The notes beneath the pieces are model-generated. The model was not told the DNA's origin and did no database searches. It saw nothing but the letters and a program-made list of their open reading frames with translations. Position numbers and translations under genes: made by a program. Positions 1-34,762 of a DNA stretch of 34,762 nucleotides are shown piece after piece. The stretch comes from Mycoplasmatota bacterium (GTDB taxonomy: Bacteria > Bacillota_I > Bacilli_A > RF39 > UBA660). Position 1 is the first letter of the stretch. Every line of letters starts with the position of its first letter. Location of the stretch: the NCBI GenBank assembly GCA_012727915.1, contig JAAYGD010000001.1, forward strand, positions 1 through 34,762, read 5' to 3'.

Positions 1-2170
1 CTGATTGTGCATCTGTACTTCCACTTATTGTTCCTGATACACTTGCTGCTTTTGTCCATGCTTCACTTACTGTTAATGTTGGTACACTTGGTGCTGTTGT
101 ATCTACTCTATTTGGTGGTGATGTACATGATGTTGTTAATCCAGCATTATTACTTATTAATACACTACATGTGCTTCCATTTGTTGCTCCTGTTACACAT
201 GACCCACCTGCTGTTGATATTCCTGATTGTGTATCCGTACTACTTGCTAATGTAAATGATTGTGTTCCACTTGCTTTCCATGGGCTTATACTTGGTGTCC
301 ACGTTCCACATACTGGTACTGATGTATCTACTCTTGTTACTGATGTTGGACTTGTTGTACTTGATGTTGATAATCCTACATTATTTGTTGCTGTTACATA
401 GTATTGATAACAATTTCCGCTTGCTACTGTTGATGTATATGGGCTTGTTTGTGTTCCTAAACTTGTCCATGCTCCATAAGCTCCACATGTTCCGTTTGTC
501 ATTGTTGCACTTCTTCTATATAATGTATAATTTGCCATTCCTGATTCTGAATCTGTTGCTGAGAACGTTACACTTTGTGTTGTACCTGTTATATATCCAT
601 TTGTATAAGATATTGCTACACTTGTTGGTGCTGTTCTATCTATTCTTACTACTTTTGATGTTGTTGTACTTGATGTTCCTGCTCCATTTATTGCTCTTAC
701 TGTTACTGTTGTTTGTCCTGCATTTGTTACTGTAAATGCTGTTCCTGTTGTCCATCCTAATGTTGTTGCTCCACTCATACTATATTCATATCTTAATATT
801 CCTGATTGTGCATCAACACTTCCATCTATTGTTCCTGATACACTTGCTGCACTTGTCCATGTTTCATTTACTGTTAATGTTGGTACGCTTGGTGCTGATG
901 TATCTACTCTTGTTGTTCCTGCTGGGCTTGTTGAACTATTAGATGTTAATCCAGCATTATTTCTTGCTAACACATAATATTGATAACAATTTCCACTTAC
1001 TACTGTTGATGTATATGGACTTGTTTGTGTTCCTAAACTACTCCATGCTCCATATGTTCCACACATATTATTTGTTAATGTTGCGCTTCTTCTATATACT
1101 GTATAATTTAATATTCCTGATATTGTATCACTTGATGAGAATGTTACACTTTGTGTTGTAACTGTTATATATCCGTTTGTATACGCTATTGTTGGTACTG
1201 CTGGTGCTGTTCTATCATATGTTACTAATCCTCCACTTGTTACATTTGTTTGTTCTAATCCTAAATTATTCCATATATCATAATAATTGCTTACATTTAC
1301 ACTTAATGATCCTTCAGTTAAAGCTGCTTCTGCTGCTGGTATTGTATATGTTGCTACTCTTGTATTTCCACTTCCTGTTACTGTTGCTGTTCTTCCTCCT
1401 ATTGTTACTGTTGGATCTGTTACACTCTTAGTAAATGTTAAATTTAATGTTACTGTATTTCCATTTATTGCGTACTTATTATTTGTTGTATTATTACTTA
1501 TTGCTACTGCTGTTGTTACCATTGGTGGTATTCCGTCATATACTATTACTGTTCTTGTTTCTGTATCTATTGTATCCCCCAAATTACTCTTTAAAACATA
1601 ATTAACTGTATAAGTACCTACTGTATTTATATCTATATCACTTGTTACTGTTACTCTATCTGTAGCCAAATTACCAAACTCATCGACTGCAATAAAACCC
1701 GGTTCTACATATACAGTTGGTTCATATATAGTATTTTGTCTCAAATAAAAAGGATTATCTCCTATTAAAGTAATAGTTGAAAAAACCAATTCACACATAT
1801 TTATATCTTCAAAAACTTGAACATTACCATTAAATTCTTTTAAAGCACAATAATTTTCTTTAAAAAGAGTAAAAGCTACTTGTCCTCTATCGTTTAAAAA
1901 AATAGTTCCAGAATCAGGTAAATCTCCAGTTACTTTGACATCTTCTTCTACAAAATTACCATCCACTATATTTATTATTTTATTTTCATAATCTTTTAAT
2001 ATAGAAGAACTTTCCAGTTTCCTAGCAATAGAATTAGAGGACGCTTCAAAAGCTCTTTCTTTGGAACCATCAATGATATTTAATACATTTGGTATAGCAA
2101 TTGCTAAAATTGTACCTAAAATTATTATTACAGATATTAGCTCTATTAAAGTAAAACCTTTTTTATTCAT
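1..2170 (-). CDS. Prepilin-like surface protein: type IV pilin N-terminal methylation motif fused to repeated Ig/FN3-like domains (partial, C-terminus beyond the left edge)
   Basis: Manual reverse-complement reading: ATG at 2168-2170 after SD-like AAGAGG; starts MNKKGFTLIELISVIIILGTILAIAIPNVLNIIDGSKERAFEASSNSIARKLESSS. The portions I translated are open down to position 2. Ser/Thr-rich repeats such as APTVPTIAYTNGYITVTTQSVTFSSSD and VNEAWTKAASVSGTISGSTDAQS. Not in the ORF track because it has no stop inside the window. Confidence 0.88.
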   Translation of the reverse strand, partial: MNKKGFTLIELISVIIILGTILAIAIPNVLNIIDGSKERAFEASSNSIARKLESSSILKDYENKIINIVDGNFVEEDVKVTGDLPDSGTIFLNDRGQVAFTLFKENYCALKEFNGNVQVFEDINMCELVFSTITLIGDNPFYLRQNTIYEPTVYVEPGFIAVDEFGNLATDRVTVTSDIDINTVGTYTVNYVLKSNLGDTIDTETRTVIVYDGIPPMVTTAVAISNNTTNNKYAINGNTVTLNLTFTKSVTDPTVTIGGRTATVTGSGNTRVATYTIPAAEAALTEGSLSVNVSNYYDIWNNLGLEQTNVTSGGLVTYDRTAPAVPTIAYTNGYITVTTQSVTFSSSDTISGILNYTVYRRSATLTNNMCGTYGAWSSLGTQTSPYTSTVVSGNCYQYYVLARNNAGLTSNSSTSPAGTTRVDTSAPSVPTLTVNETWTSAASVSGTIDGSVDAQSGILRYEYSMSGATTLGWTTGTAFTVTNAGQTTVTVRAINGAGTSSTTTSKVVRIDRTAPTSVAISYTNGYITGTTQSVTFSATDSESGMANYTLYRRSATMTNGTCGAYGAWTSLGTQTSPYTSTVASGNCYQYYVTATNNVGLSTSSTTSPTSVTRVDTSVPVCGTWTPSISPWKASGTQSFTLASSTDTQSGISTAGGSCVTGATNGSTCSVLISNNAGLTTSCTSPPNRVDTTAPSVPTLTVSEAWTKAASVSGTISGSTDAQS
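396..545. repeat. Intragenic repeat copy A (partner at ~971-1117) within the Ig/FN3-like CDS
   Basis: tattgataacaatttccgcttgctactgttgatgtatatgggcttgtttgtgttcctaaac... closely matches tattgataacaatttccacttactactgttgatgtatatggacttgtttgtgttcctaaac... near 977. Confidence 0.8.
971..1117. repeat. Intragenic repeat copy B (partner at ~396-545)
   Basis: Near-identical nucleotide stretch about 575 bp from copy A; encodes (Y)NYT(V/L)YRRSAT...CG.YGAWSSLGTQTSPYTSTV.SGNCYQYYV. Confidence 0.8.
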
Positions 2171-27164: not shown

Positions 27165-27178
27165 ATAAAAGTCTTTTT
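27154..27178. terminator. Bidirectional terminator between tmcAL and the LRR prepilin
   Basis: AAAAAGAC-N9-GTCTTTTT inverted repeat spanning both convergent stop codons. Confidence 0.7.
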
Positions 27179-28214
27179 ATGATTTCGACCATATACATGT
27201 TTGACACGTTGAAGTATAATTTCCAGCTGCTCTTGAATAAGTTGTTACATAAGAATTATAAAAATTATTTGATATTGAAGTACTTGATACATCTACTAAA
27301 GAAGGCATATTAATATTAACAATTGAATTATTTACAAAAGCCTCTATTCCTATCGAATTAACAGTTGAAGGAATAGAAAGACTAGTTAATTGATTTCCAT
27401 AAAAAGCTCTTTCTTCAATAGACCCTACCCCATTTGAAATAGATAAATTAGTTAATTGATTATTTTCAAATGCTGAAACTCCAATTGTATTTACACTAGT
27501 AGGTATATTAATATTATTAATAATATTTCCACTAAAAGCATATGAAGATATAGTAGTAACACTATTTGGTAATATTATACTTTTTAGAAAATTATTTTGA
27601 AAAGAATTTGAACCAATAGTATTAACTGTATTTGGAATTATTACACTTGTTAGTCCAATATTATCAAATGCAGAAGAACCAATTATCGTTAATGTTTTCC
27701 CTCCTAAAGTACTTGGTATAATTACATTTTTAGAGCAACTTAAATCATATCCAATAACAGTTGCTTCAGTTACTGAACTAGAATAATCAAAACAACTTTC
27801 GTCTACACTTTCTGGAACATTTAAAATACAAATAGAATCTTTTGTAACAGATACCCTCTTTTCATTAAATTCTTTTTTTGCGCACAAAGTACCATTAAAT
27901 AACATAATCGCTACATATCCATTATAAGTAACATAAATAATGCCTTGATCAGGTAAAGTACCATTATAAGGTATTGAATCTCCTACAAATATACCACCTG
28001 AAATAGTATATTTTTTATCTACTGGTACATTAAAAGATAAATCTAATAATCTATCACTAGCAGCTTTAACTAAATTCTCAGCTCCTACTCTAATAGACTC
28101 AATTTGAGAATTTTCTATAACTTTTAAAATTCTCGGAATAGAAATAACTAAAATTATTGCTAACACAACTATAACTGCTAATAATTCAATTAAAGTAAAC
28201 GCTTTTCTATTCAT
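27177..28214 (-). CDS. Prepilin-like protein fused to BspA-type leucine-rich repeats
   Basis: N-terminus MNRKAFTLIELLAVIVVLAIILVISIPRILKVIENSQ (class III prepilin signal). C-terminal ~23-aa repeats: GLTSVIIPNTVNTIGSNSFQNNFLKSIILPNSVTTISSYAFSGNIINNINIPTSVNTIGVSAFENNQLTNL. Confidence 0.92.
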   Translation of the reverse strand: MNRKAFTLIELLAVIVVLAIILVISIPRILKVIENSQIESIRVGAENLVKAASDRLLDLSFNVPVDKKYTISGGIFVGDSIPYNGTLPDQGIIYVTYNGYVAIMLFNGTLCAKKEFNEKRVSVTKDSICILNVPESVDESCFDYSSSVTEATVIGYDLSCSKNVIIPSTLGGKTLTIIGSSAFDNIGLTSVIIPNTVNTIGSNSFQNNFLKSIILPNSVTTISSYAFSGNIINNINIPTSVNTIGVSAFENNQLTNLSISNGVGSIEERAFYGNQLTSLSIPSTVNSIGIEAFVNNSIVNINMPSLVDVSSTSISNNFYNSYVTTYSRAAGNYTSTCQTCIWSKS

Positions 28215-30336: not shown

Positions 30337-30488
30337 AAAAAAACTTTCATTCCTAAGGAACGAAAGCCGTGGTACCATCCTATTTACTTCTCTTAATATA
30401 ACGGTATTTACCGGAAATGTTTACATTTCACTCAAAAGTAGATTCATAAACTATATATGTTAATTTTCACCAACCATTAACTCTCTAT
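30337..30488 (-). promoter_or_regulatory. T-box leader (tRNA-Ser responsive) upstream of serS
   Basis: Minus strand contains AGGATGGTACCACGG (T-box/antiterminator) at 30367-30381, then terminator CTTTCGTTCCTTAGGAATGAAAG-TTTTTTT at 30366-30337. Stem I region AGAGAGTTAATGGTTGGTGAAAATTAAC...GAATCTACTTTTGAGTG with candidate UCU (Ser) specifier at 30442-30440. Confidence 0.93.
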
Positions 30489-30495
30489 AATACAT

Positions 30496-30864
30496 TTATT
30501 TATTACTATTCTCTCTCTTAGATTTTCCAAAAATTAATTCTTTAGTTTTTTCTAATATACTCTTTCCAGATTGTTTTAGTTCTATTGAGGATTCTTCTTT
30601 CGGAAAAATTCCACAACTCATTTCTAATATGCTCTCTCCAGATTGTCTTGCTTTTTCTAAAAATAGCATTTCCTCTTTAGTCATTCCATAAACACTTTTT
30701 TCTAAAGTACTTAGTTTATTAAATCTTCTTGTTCCTATTTTTTCAATAAAATTTGTTCTTTCAGAAATAGTGAAAGCGTTTTTATATCTTTTTTGATCGT
30801 TTTCACTCATTTTTGAAACTAATGTTTCTTTTTCTTCTTCAGAAAAATAATAACTATACTTCAT
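30496..30864 (-). CDS. Uncharacterised small soluble protein with a duplicated QSG(E/K)SILE motif
   Basis: ORF with good codon structure: ARQSGESILEMSCGIF and LKQSGKSILEKTKELIFGKSK. Located between prepilin peptidase and the serS T-box. Confidence 0.6.
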   Translation of the reverse strand: MKYSYYFSEEEKETLVSKMSENDQKRYKNAFTISERTNFIEKIGTRRFNKLSTLEKSVYGMTKEEMLFLEKARQSGESILEMSCGIFPKEESSIELKQSGKSILEKTKELIFGKSKRENSNK

Positions 30865-30899: not shown

Positions 30900-31664
30900 T
30901 TAATATAATAATCTAATTATTTCTAGTGCAGTTATATTAAAATAACTTATTATTAATGCTCCAACACACAAATAAGGCCCAAATGGCATCATGTGTTCTT
31001 TATCTTTAAAATAATAATAACAAGATATTGGAAAAGCTATAATAGTACCTAAAAATACTGCTATTAAAGCATTTTCCCACCCAAGGAATAATCCTACTAT
31101 AAGCATTAATTTTATATCTCCCCCACCCATAGTTTCTTTTTTAAATACTAAATCCCCAAAAGACTTTACTAAATATAAAAAAGCAAATGGTATTAAAGCA
31201 TCTAATAATATATCTTTATATATTGAAAATCCATTTATTAAAATCATTGATACAACAAAAAAAGTGAAAAACACAAAGATTATTTCATCTGGAATAATCA
31301 TATATCTTATATCAGATACAATTACGATTACTGAAAAAGAAATAAATAATATAGAAAAAAGTAACTCAATACTTAATCCAAATATTAAATATGATAAAAA
31401 GAATAATAAGCCAGTTAATAGCTCAATTAATGGATAAATAATGCTAACCTCTTTTTTACAATTCTTACATTTACCACCTAAAAATATATATGAAAATAAT
31501 GGTATTAATTCTAGTGAACCTAATTTATGATTACAATTAACACAGTGAGATGCAGGAAAAGCAATAGATTCTTTTTTAGGGACTCTATAACCTACCACAT
31601 TGAAAAAAGATCCCATTATTGTGCCTATTATAAAGAAAAACATTGGATATATATTAGTTAACAT
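30900..31664 (-). CDS. pilD: Type IV prepilin peptidase (A24 family, bifunctional type)
   Basis: N-terminal GSFFNVVGYRVPKKESIAFPASHCVNCNHKLGSLELIPLFSYIFLGGKCKNCKKEVS; catalytic Asp motifs SDIRYMIIPDE and GGGDIKLM. Confidence 0.93.
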   Translation of the reverse strand: MLTNIYPMFFFIIGTIMGSFFNVVGYRVPKKESIAFPASHCVNCNHKLGSLELIPLFSYIFLGGKCKNCKKEVSIIYPLIELLTGLLFFLSYLIFGLSIELLFSILFISFSVIVIVSDIRYMIIPDEIIFVFFTFFVVSMILINGFSIYKDILLDALIPFAFLYLVKSFGDLVFKKETMGGGDIKLMLIVGLFLGWENALIAVFLGTIIAFPISCYYYFKDKEHMMPFGPYLCVGALIISYFNITALEIIRLLY

Positions 31665-31676
31665 ATTAATCTCCTA

Positions 31677-33989
31677 TTACATTATTTCTGTATACATATT
31701 AAACATAGGTAATATTACAGACATTAATATTATACCAACTAATACAGTTAAAAACACTATCATTAATGGTTCTATAAAAGTTTTTATTTGAGTAACAGAG
31801 TTTTTATGTTGCAATTGGAAGTAATCAGACACCTTCATCATCATATCTCCAAGTTCTCCAGTTTTTTCTCCTGTAAGCAACATTTCATATGCAATTACTG
31901 GGAAAGCCCAATGATTTTTAAATGCATTAGAAATAATTCCACCTTTAGCCAAATTAGTAATTGTATCAAATATTAACATCTTATATATTTCATTATTTGT
32001 AATCTTACTTAACACTTCCATACTATCTGTTATGAATACATTGTGATTTAATAAAGATCCAAATGTTTTTGTAAATGTAGTTACTTCATTATATATAATA
32101 ATTTTACCAAATACCGCAACATGCATAGTTGCCCATTGTACTATCGTTCTAAATGCCTTTACCGACTTATATAATGCTTTAAATATTAAAAATATAGCAA
32201 ATAATCCCATCAATAAATAAAATATATTTTTTCTCAAGAAATTACTAGTATCAATGATTATCTTTGTAATGGTTGGTAATTCTGCGTCCATTTCTTTATA
32301 TATACCAACAAACTCTGGTATAACAAATATTAATATAAATATTATTACACCAGTTGCAAAAACAAATATTACTAACGGATAAGTCATAGCTGATTTCATT
32401 TGTTTTCTAGTTTTATTCATTTCATCATAGTAAGTAGCCATATCATCTAAAACTTCAGGAAGGTTTCCTGATAACTCGGATGATTTTATCATATTAACTA
32501 ATAATCTTGGAAAAGAATCTCCTTGTTTTTCAAGAGCGCTACTAAAATTTTCTCCCATTGTTAATTCATAATTTAATGATTTATATAAATTTTTATACTT
32601 TCTTTTATCAGTTTGTTTTTCTAATATTTTTATAGCTTCAAGTAAAGGTAATCCAGATTTTAAGAAAGTAGACAATTGTGTTAAGAAGAAAACCAAATCC
32701 GCTCTTTTAATTTTTCCTCTTACTAATTTAGTTAATACATCTTGACCATAATTTCTTTGAGGTGTAATTTCATATACCTCATAACCTTCCGCAAGTAAAT
32801 AAGAGTGAACTTCAAGTTTAGAAAATGCTGGAAAAACTCCTCTTTCAAGTTCCCCTGTTTCTAATTTTTTAGCAACATATGTAAAATATATTTTTTGTTC
32901 ACTACGAACAGCATCTTCTCCTTCAAAATCAATCAAAAGAACTTGTCTTTCCATTTCGGCTTTATTTTCTCTATACCTAACAAATGCAAGATTTTTATAC
33001 CATTTCTTAATCTTTTGTTTTAAAGGAATATTTTTTTCTTCTTTTTGCTTTTCTTTTTGTTCTAATTTTGCTTTTTTAATCTTTATCGCATTTTCTTTTC
33101 TTCTTTTAGATTCAGATTCTTTTGCAGCTTTAAGTTTGGATTCAGTTTCAATTTTTTCAATCAATTGTTTTTCTTTTAATTTCTTTTGTTCAGCTTTAGC
33201 AATAATTTTTTCTTCAGCTTTTTTTCTTTTTTCTTCCTTTTTTTGTAATTTTAATTCTAATTTCTTTTGTTTTTTTGGTTCTAATTCCTGTTTCTTTAAT
33301 TCTTTTAATCTTTTAGCTTCTTCAATTCTTTTAATTTTTTGTTCTTTTTTAAGAATCTTTTCTTGTTCTTTTCTTATTCTATTAACTTCTTTTAATGTTT
33401 CTTTATCAATGTTCTTATTAATAATTTCATTATTACTCTTTTGCTTGTTTCTTTTTTCTAGTTTTCTTTTTTCTCTTAACGCTATTTTATATTCTTTCTT
33501 TCTTTTCTTTTCTTCTATTCTTTGTAATCTTTCTTGTTCTTTTTTTGCTTTACTTGCGTTATTCAAAGCTTTTTTATCTATATCTTTTTTATTATCCGGT
33601 TTTTTTCTTCTTTCTAGTTTCTTTTTTTCTTTTAACGCTATTTTATATTCTTTCTTTCTTTTCTTTTCTTCTATTCTTTGTAATCTTTCTTGTTCTTTTT
33701 TTGCTTTATTTGTAATCTTCAATACTTTATTCTTTTTATTTTCATTTAATATTTTTTTATTTTTATCTTTTTTAAATGGTAATAATATTGTATTTTTTAA
33801 TATTAATTCTAAGCCATAATAAAAATATATAAATGATTTTACTGGGATCATTAATATTTGTCTTAATCCTTCTAAGAAAAAGACTATAATTTTTTTTATT
33901 AATTTAAAAGGAAAAAGAACACTCCTCTTTATAAAAGAAGTATTTTTTTTCAATGGAGACGATAACAAATTGTGTGTCTTTTTTTCCAT
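31677..33989 (-). CDS. pilC: Type IV filament platform protein (GspF/PilC family) with a long Lys/Glu-rich N-terminal extension
   Basis: C-terminal two T2SSF-type units (FFLTQLSTFLKSGLPLLEAIKILEKQ...; TKTFGSLLNHNVFITDSMEVLSKIT...), TM helices, MTYPLVIFVFATGVIIFILIFVIPEFVGIY. The ~340-aa N-terminal region is mostly K/E/R. Confidence 0.92.
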   Translation of the reverse strand: MEKKTHNLLSSPLKKNTSFIKRSVLFPFKLIKKIIVFFLEGLRQILMIPVKSFIYFYYGLELILKNTILLPFKKDKNKKILNENKKNKVLKITNKAKKEQERLQRIEEKKRKKEYKIALKEKKKLERRKKPDNKKDIDKKALNNASKAKKEQERLQRIEEKKRKKEYKIALREKRKLEKRNKQKSNNEIINKNIDKETLKEVNRIRKEQEKILKKEQKIKRIEEAKRLKELKKQELEPKKQKKLELKLQKKEEKRKKAEEKIIAKAEQKKLKEKQLIEKIETESKLKAAKESESKRRKENAIKIKKAKLEQKEKQKEEKNIPLKQKIKKWYKNLAFVRYRENKAEMERQVLLIDFEGEDAVRSEQKIYFTYVAKKLETGELERGVFPAFSKLEVHSYLLAEGYEVYEITPQRNYGQDVLTKLVRGKIKRADLVFFLTQLSTFLKSGLPLLEAIKILEKQTDKRKYKNLYKSLNYELTMGENFSSALEKQGDSFPRLLVNMIKSSELSGNLPEVLDDMATYYDEMNKTRKQMKSAMTYPLVIFVFATGVIIFILIFVIPEFVGIYKEMDAELPTITKIIIDTSNFLRKNIFYLLMGLFAIFLIFKALYKSVKAFRTIVQWATMHVAVFGKIIIYNEVTTFTKTFGSLLNHNVFITDSMEVLSKITNNEIYKMLIFDTITNLAKGGIISNAFKNHWAFPVIAYEMLLTGEKTGELGDMMMKVSDYFQLQHKNSVTQIKTFIEPLMIVFLTVLVGIILMSVILPMFNMYTEIM
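33457..33555. repeat. Intragenic direct repeat copy 1 in the charged extension of pilC
   Basis: tctagttttctttttt...aacgctattttatattctttctttcttttcttttcttctattctttgtaatctttcttgttctttttttgctttac; partner ~156 bp downstream. Confidence 0.85.
33613..33710. repeat. Intragenic direct repeat copy 2 in the charged extension of pilC
   Basis: Nearly identical to 33457-33555; both encode KAKKEQERLQRIEEKKRKKEYKIAL(K/R)EK.KLE.R. Confidence 0.85.
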
Positions 33990-34083: not shown

Positions 34084-34110
34084 AAAAAAGATAGAATAAT
34101 CTATCTTTTA
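34084..34110 (-). terminator. Intrinsic terminator after the Cys-rich CDS
   Basis: AAAAGATAG-AATAAT-CTATCTTTT perfect inverted repeat; on the minus strand followed by a T-tract. Confidence 0.75.
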
Positions 34111-34114
34111 ATTA

Positions 34115-34762
34115 TTAATTATATACTACTCTATTTTGACATTGTAATGTGCCTGATGCTGTACAAGCTGTTGTTGTCCAAGATCCAAAACTATTCCATG
34201 TTGCACAACTTCCTTGAGCATATGTTTCGCATCCACAAGTCGCTGCGCGACATGAGTTATATGTTTGACATCCACATCCACTTGTTCTACATGAATTGTA
34301 TCCACAGGCTGATGCATTTGCACATGAATTGTACGATGTACAACTTCCCGTATATGTTCTTTTTATGTATGTACTAATTCCAGTTTGTTTCCATGTAGGT
34401 GTTTGATCACACCCTTTAGCACCTGATTCGCTTCTACATTTTGTTTCACACCTATTTGAAGTTGTAGACCAAGATATGGAACTGGCTCCTTTTAAACAAC
34501 TACAAGTACAAGTATATGCGTTTACGTTACATGTGTTATAAACTTGATTTGGTCCTGCTGACCCTGATGCAGAGCAGCTACTTGGATATGTTTTGCTCTC
34601 AACATAATTTCCCCACCATGCACAACTACATGATGAGTTTGGACATGATGCTGCTCCACATGCTGAATTTGCACAAGATTTATAAGTGGCACACGTACAA
34701 GATGAATTTGGACAGCTCTTGTATTGAGTACATGCTCCATTGTTATATGTTGCACAAGATGC
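34115..34762 (-). CDS. Extremely cysteine-rich, probably secreted protein (partial: C-terminal 215 aa; N-terminus beyond the right edge)
   Basis: Manual minus-strand reading, open from 34762 to TAA at 34117-34115: ...CTQYKSCPNSSCTCATYKSCANSACGAASCPNSSCSCAWWGNYVE...SCTSYNSCANASACGYNSCRTSGCGCQTYNSCRAATCGCETYAQGSCATWNSFGSWTTTACTASGTLQCQNRVVYN*. 30 Cys counted. Not in the ORF track because it is open to the edge. Confidence 0.8.
   Translation of the reverse strand, partial: ASCATYNNGACTQYKSCPNSSCTCATYKSCANSACGAASCPNSSCSCAWWGNYVESKTYPSSCSASGSAGPNQVYNTCNVNAYTCTCSCLKGASSISWSTTSNRCETKCRSESGAKGCDQTPTWKQTGISTYIKRTYTGSCTSYNSCANASACGYNSCRTSGCGCQTYNSCRAATCGCETYAQGSCATWNSFGSWTTTACTASGTLQCQNRVVYN

Follow-up and report, generated by a model that had tools for sequence, protein, structure and literature searches.

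Type IV pilins that carry an extra C-terminal module are already known, with more than 1,200 modular proteins in 264 architectures described (PMC8179133). For example, PilB of Streptococcus sanguinis carries a vWA module behind its pilin domain, and this C-terminal module is the adhesin (PMC8179133). Here we examine a window of 34,762 nucleotides (the whole stretch of DNA analyzed), which is the entire contig C59 and ends in a strikingly Cys-rich frame. The genome comprises 873 kb in 76 contigs. We compare this frame with modular pilins and with other surface proteins.

Results

The Cys-rich frame lies on the minus strand at the right end of the contig. It runs from 34762 to 34118, followed by a stop codon at 34117-34115; all 215 codons are open, and its 5' side is open where the contig ends.

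34115..34762, minus strand: 3' end of a 5'-truncated gene encoding a Cys-rich C-terminal tail (215 aa, 30 Cys)
34622..34762, minus strand: Cys repeat block 1 (aa 1-47), SCPNSSCxCA and YKSCANSACG spacing, profile match at 34649-34735
34343..34594, minus strand: middle segment (aa 57-140), TYPSSC...NTCNVNAYTCTCSC...WSTT, common to the paralogue on contig C49
34205..34342, minus strand: Cys repeat block 2 (aa 141-186), SCTSYNSC...SGCGCQTYNSC...CGCETY, with matches of profile A4 at 34118-34300 and 34259-34345
34118..34204, minus strand: terminal motif (aa 187-215), W..(F/W)..WTTT.CTAS....QC..R..YN, defined by comparison with homologues

Cysteine accounts for 14% of the residues (28 TGT and 2 TGC codons), compared with a mean of 1.1% for the remaining window genes, a rate at which 30 Cys in 215 residues has a binomial probability of about 2e-23. 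Eighteen of the 29 gaps between Cys are 2, 5, or 6 residues, which was matched by none of 20,000 shuffles. The very high Cys density claimed in the initial annotation is thus borne out by the count, and the motifs that it quoted are present in the window sequence. The G+C content of the gene is 39%, versus 25% for the window, and the plus-strand open reading frames that face it are incidental. Searches of Pfam, NCBIfam, and PHROGs gave no family match to the 215-aa tail, and an AlphaFold2 prediction with three sequences was uninformative (pLDDT 28).

A paralogous tail is found at the left end of contig C49 of the same genome, with 51% identity over residues 57 to 215 of the window gene. Across 122 aligned codons the two have 16 Cys in common, out of 17 in one sequence and 16 in the other; dN is 0.45 and dS is 1.08 (dN/dS about 0.41). 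Given this identity, the aligned Cys, and the excess of dS over dN, we conclude that the Cys-rich frame is a real gene. Judged from this alignment, purifying selection acts on the frame on average, and its Cys are conserved.

Two longer proteins in the same genome end in Cys-rich tails. The first, on contig C18, is a complete 1,234-aa prepilin with Ig-like domains; its tail is built of different repeats (CNPYS and CYDT/CYGT) and appears similar in kind to the window tail rather than clearly homologous. The second, on contig C41, has 1,464 aa, a plain N-terminal membrane anchor without a prepilin signal, and Ig-like and Big_2 domains. Its last 50 residues are homologous to the window tail, and by its terminal motif (WSSWTSTKCTP...KCETRTVYQ) it is a close tail homologue of the window gene within this genome. 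Contig C16 also encodes a 765-aa prepilin (L027:6257-8551) with an extended body of repeats (GGLVG-type, by eye) and hardly any Cys.

A single-sequence search of 60 relatives with the tail gave no match outside the genome itself. Profiles reached further: the terminal-module profile matched 6 of 193 genomes of the family and, in the order, 13 of 385 (this genome included), all of them inside the family, with several matches weak. Profile matches to the tail were thus counted in 12 genomes of the same family besides its own, some of them weak. A degenerate DNA pattern picked out two Bacilli metagenome-assembled genomes (MAGs), along with five matches at which no matching frame was seen. One of the two, L066, is an uncultured Bacilli MAG from the Lapin series that the profiles had not reached; the second MAG is probably G107. 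The viral contigs and plasmids that were searched held no relative of the tail.

Four complete proteins with Cys-rich tails were found outside the genome, in G015 (936 aa), G342 (773 aa), G179 (1,659 aa), and G063 (645 aa). All four begin with a prepilin signal, and their N termini, like that of the C18 protein, match prepilin, ComGC/ComGE, or type II pseudopilin models; five genomes, with C18 representing the window's own, therefore encode a prepilin with a long, mostly Ig-like ectodomain and a C-terminal Cys-rich tail. The remaining tail proteins that we looked at were cut by a contig end or too short to judge. Repeat block 1 of the window gene resembles the tail of the complete G342 prepilin (CVNSSCDCKTYKSCRNSSCDC), and the terminal motif recurs at the extreme C terminus of several homologues. 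Where the upstream part is readable, an Ig-like domain with a D.AGN-type end mostly stands immediately before the tail. These relatives show a clear architecture: the Cys-rich tail is an extra C-terminal module outside the pilin fold, and that of the window has homologues among the tails that follow pilin and Ig-like domains in one protein. Rather than one small disulfide-rich protein, the window frame is most likely the end of a far larger protein. In G063, what is seemingly the same 645-aa prepilin occurs on two contigs, C11 and C22 (L100:1508-3442 and L101:154-2088), which may reflect a recent duplication or assembly redundancy.

The two ends of the window hold further signs of genes of this class.

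34084..34109, minus strand: intrinsic-terminator-like hairpin directly 3' of the Cys-rich gene (MFE -11.2 kcal/mol, z -3.3), with a T-run behind it
2..2170, minus strand: 3'-truncated prepilin head with Ig-like repeats (Pfam N_methyl and Bact_surface_Ig-like), paralogous to the C18 prepilin and to the C49 head

The hairpin was not listed by a G+C-based terminator scan. Among the loci compared, exact 24-nt copies of this terminator follow the window gene and the C49 tail and lie close to where the C18 prepilin gene ends; none follows the C41 gene. Heads of prepilins with Ig repeats are cut at the left end of the window and at the right end of C49 (14533-15348), and each of these contigs has a cut tail at its opposite end. 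The two heads are 69% identical over residues 1 to 268, and the last 66 bases of the C49 head are identical to the window's head. Cut heads and cut tails would be the expected product of an assembly broken at repeats in such genes. At most one head-tail pairing can be right, since both together would join C49 and C59 in a closed circle of 50 kb. The N terminus of the window gene was not found on any other contig; the head at 2..2170 belongs to the same protein class as the putative missing part, and we do not assign it to the same gene.

The genome encodes type IV filament machinery, two components of which lie in the window.

31677..33989, minus strand: pilC-type type IV pilus platform protein (T2SSF; Pfam PF00482, E value 2.5e-53) with a long Lys/Glu-rich N-terminal extension, the next gene downstream of the Cys-rich gene
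30900..31664, minus strand: prepilin peptidase (A24; Pfam PF06750 and PF01478)

PilB is encoded on contig C76 and a PilT-like ATPase on C19, and prepilins are numerous. The initial annotation used the location beside pilC as support for display on a filament, but this location carries little weight. An operon of the two genes was rejected: the hairpin and T-run lie between them, and none of 20 relatives has a Cys-rich prepilin upstream of pilC. Other genes occupy that position in the relatives, often a dnaG-rpoD-methyltransferase set (names assigned by eye from N-terminal sequences). The pairing is local.

Several features of these regions are recorded for their own sake. The N-terminal extension of the PilC homologue is about 300 residues long and includes low-complexity repeats (33480-33710), and the pilC homologue of G015 (L049, G015:C58) contains one in-frame TAG. 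A second prepilin of the window (27177-28214, minus strand) has BspA-type leucine-rich repeats (PF13306) in place of Ig-like domains. Upstream of serS, a T-box leader was detected at 30353-30528 on the minus strand (Rfam RF00230, 101.5 bits).

No match to DsbA (PF01323) or VKOR (PF07884) was found in the genome, which is about 94% complete. Of its four thioredoxin-family matches, three look like short soluble proteins and one is part of an 802-aa frame. Disulfide bonding of the tail is thus putative; the tail may instead carry free thiols or bound metal, given that neither oxidase was matched and that the readable thioredoxins are short and soluble. The CYDT/CYGT repeats of the C18 tail gave a match to TIGR04114 of 16.1 bits, below the cutoff of 20. 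Modification of the window tail as a radical SAM CXXX-repeat target was considered and gained no support, as it has no TIGR04114 match and no TIGR04115 maturase was found in the genome.

Discussion

We postulate, with a probability of roughly two in three, that the window frame encodes the Cys-rich module at the C-terminal, cell-distal end of a large modular type IV prepilin. The whole protein would begin with a prepilin signal and alpha-1 helix, continue through a series of Ig-like domains, and end in the Cys-rich tail. It would be exported by Sec, cleaved by the prepilin peptidase encoded at 30900-31664, and incorporated into filaments assembled by PilB, PilT, and PilC, or located at their tip. 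Its tail would then face outward as a cross-linked or metal-bound tip rich in Tyr, Ser, and Thr, the most likely target of which is a gut surface or ligand. The analogy with S. sanguinis PilB suggests that the tail may be adhesive, and tails at the far end of such very large pilus subunits probably serve as sticky or stabilizing tips. Of the initial proposal that the gene encodes a secreted, possibly filament-displayed adhesin, the general idea gains from the architecture of the complete prepilin relatives and loses the argument from location.

The same tail could instead sit on a wall-spanning adhesin independent of pili, held by an ordinary N-terminal transmembrane anchor and built of Ig-like and Big_2 domains. 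The C41 protein has exactly this architecture together with a homologous terminal motif. We consider this strongest competitor unlikely: every other complete tail protein found, in five genomes, is a prepilin, and by its shared terminator the window gene goes with C18 and C49, not with C41. We favor the prepilin for the window gene because of this terminator and because the heads and tails at contig ends fit an assembly broken at repeats.

Very high Cys content, in a gene whose N terminus lies beyond the contig end, might also suggest a free-standing or cytoplasmic metallothionein-like metal-binding protein or a toxin-like or defense peptide. This is very improbable, as homologous tails end Ig-domain surface proteins with export signals, the composition is rich in Ser, Thr, Tyr, and Asn as in extracellular linkers, and Pfam, NCBIfam, and PHROGs offer no corresponding family; nothing was found in favor of the toxin-like or defensive role raised in the initial annotation. 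Equally improbable is a decayed remnant of a gene already broken upstream of the contig end, an idea prompted by an apparent frame change about 85 to 95 nt from the contig start in the C49 tail, since that change sits where the contig begins and could be either a fault of the assembly or a real break, and the window frame is open throughout and under purifying selection on average.

A modular prepilin of this kind would extend modular pilins to uncultured, small-genome, gut-type Bacilli. Modular pilins themselves are not new; the terminal module is new to Pfam and NCBIfam and occurs in one family of uncultured Bacilli. If it is adhesive, it offers a concrete candidate for how such minimal bacteria cling to mucus or partner cells. 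It also raises the question of surface Cys chemistry in a bacterium presumed to be anaerobic, whose genome gave no DsbA or VKOR match. We speculate, as a distinctly doubtful proposition, that this undescribed tip module of small-genome gut Bacilli, carried on giant modular pilins and anchor-type adhesins, may remain reduced under the anoxic conditions of the gut and work via free thiols or metal that it binds (for instance, by thiol-disulfide exchange with mucins) instead of forming a disulfide scaffold, an idea based on the lack of a match to a dedicated thiol oxidase.

Comparison with known systems places the tail at different distances from several families. At its extreme C terminus, the W..W..W spacing followed by C and R recalls a thrombospondin type 1 repeat by eye, as the initial annotation remarked; that likeness did not hold up, with no Pfam match and no thrombospondin structure in PDB searches even at E values up to 10. 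The CXXX-repeat peptides on which radical SAM enzymes act (TIGR04114/TIGR04115) resemble the C18 tail below threshold and differ from the window tail. Bacterial Ig-like surface proteins (PF16403, Bact_surface_Ig-like; PF02368, Big_2) share their domains with the bodies of the C18 and C41 proteins and the C49 head, whereas the window tail has no Ig-domain match and these families define no Cys-rich tail. Closest are the modular type IV pilins, represented by S. sanguinis PilB and PilC (PMC8179133). Unlike these, the relatives described here insert a long, mostly Ig-like stalk and end in a Cys-rich repeat tail instead of a vWA or lectin module; the prepilin part of the window gene would lie beyond the contig end. 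Like them, the complete relatives join a prepilin N terminus to a large additional module at the C terminus, and they occur in monoderm bacteria that have PilB/PilC/PilD machinery.
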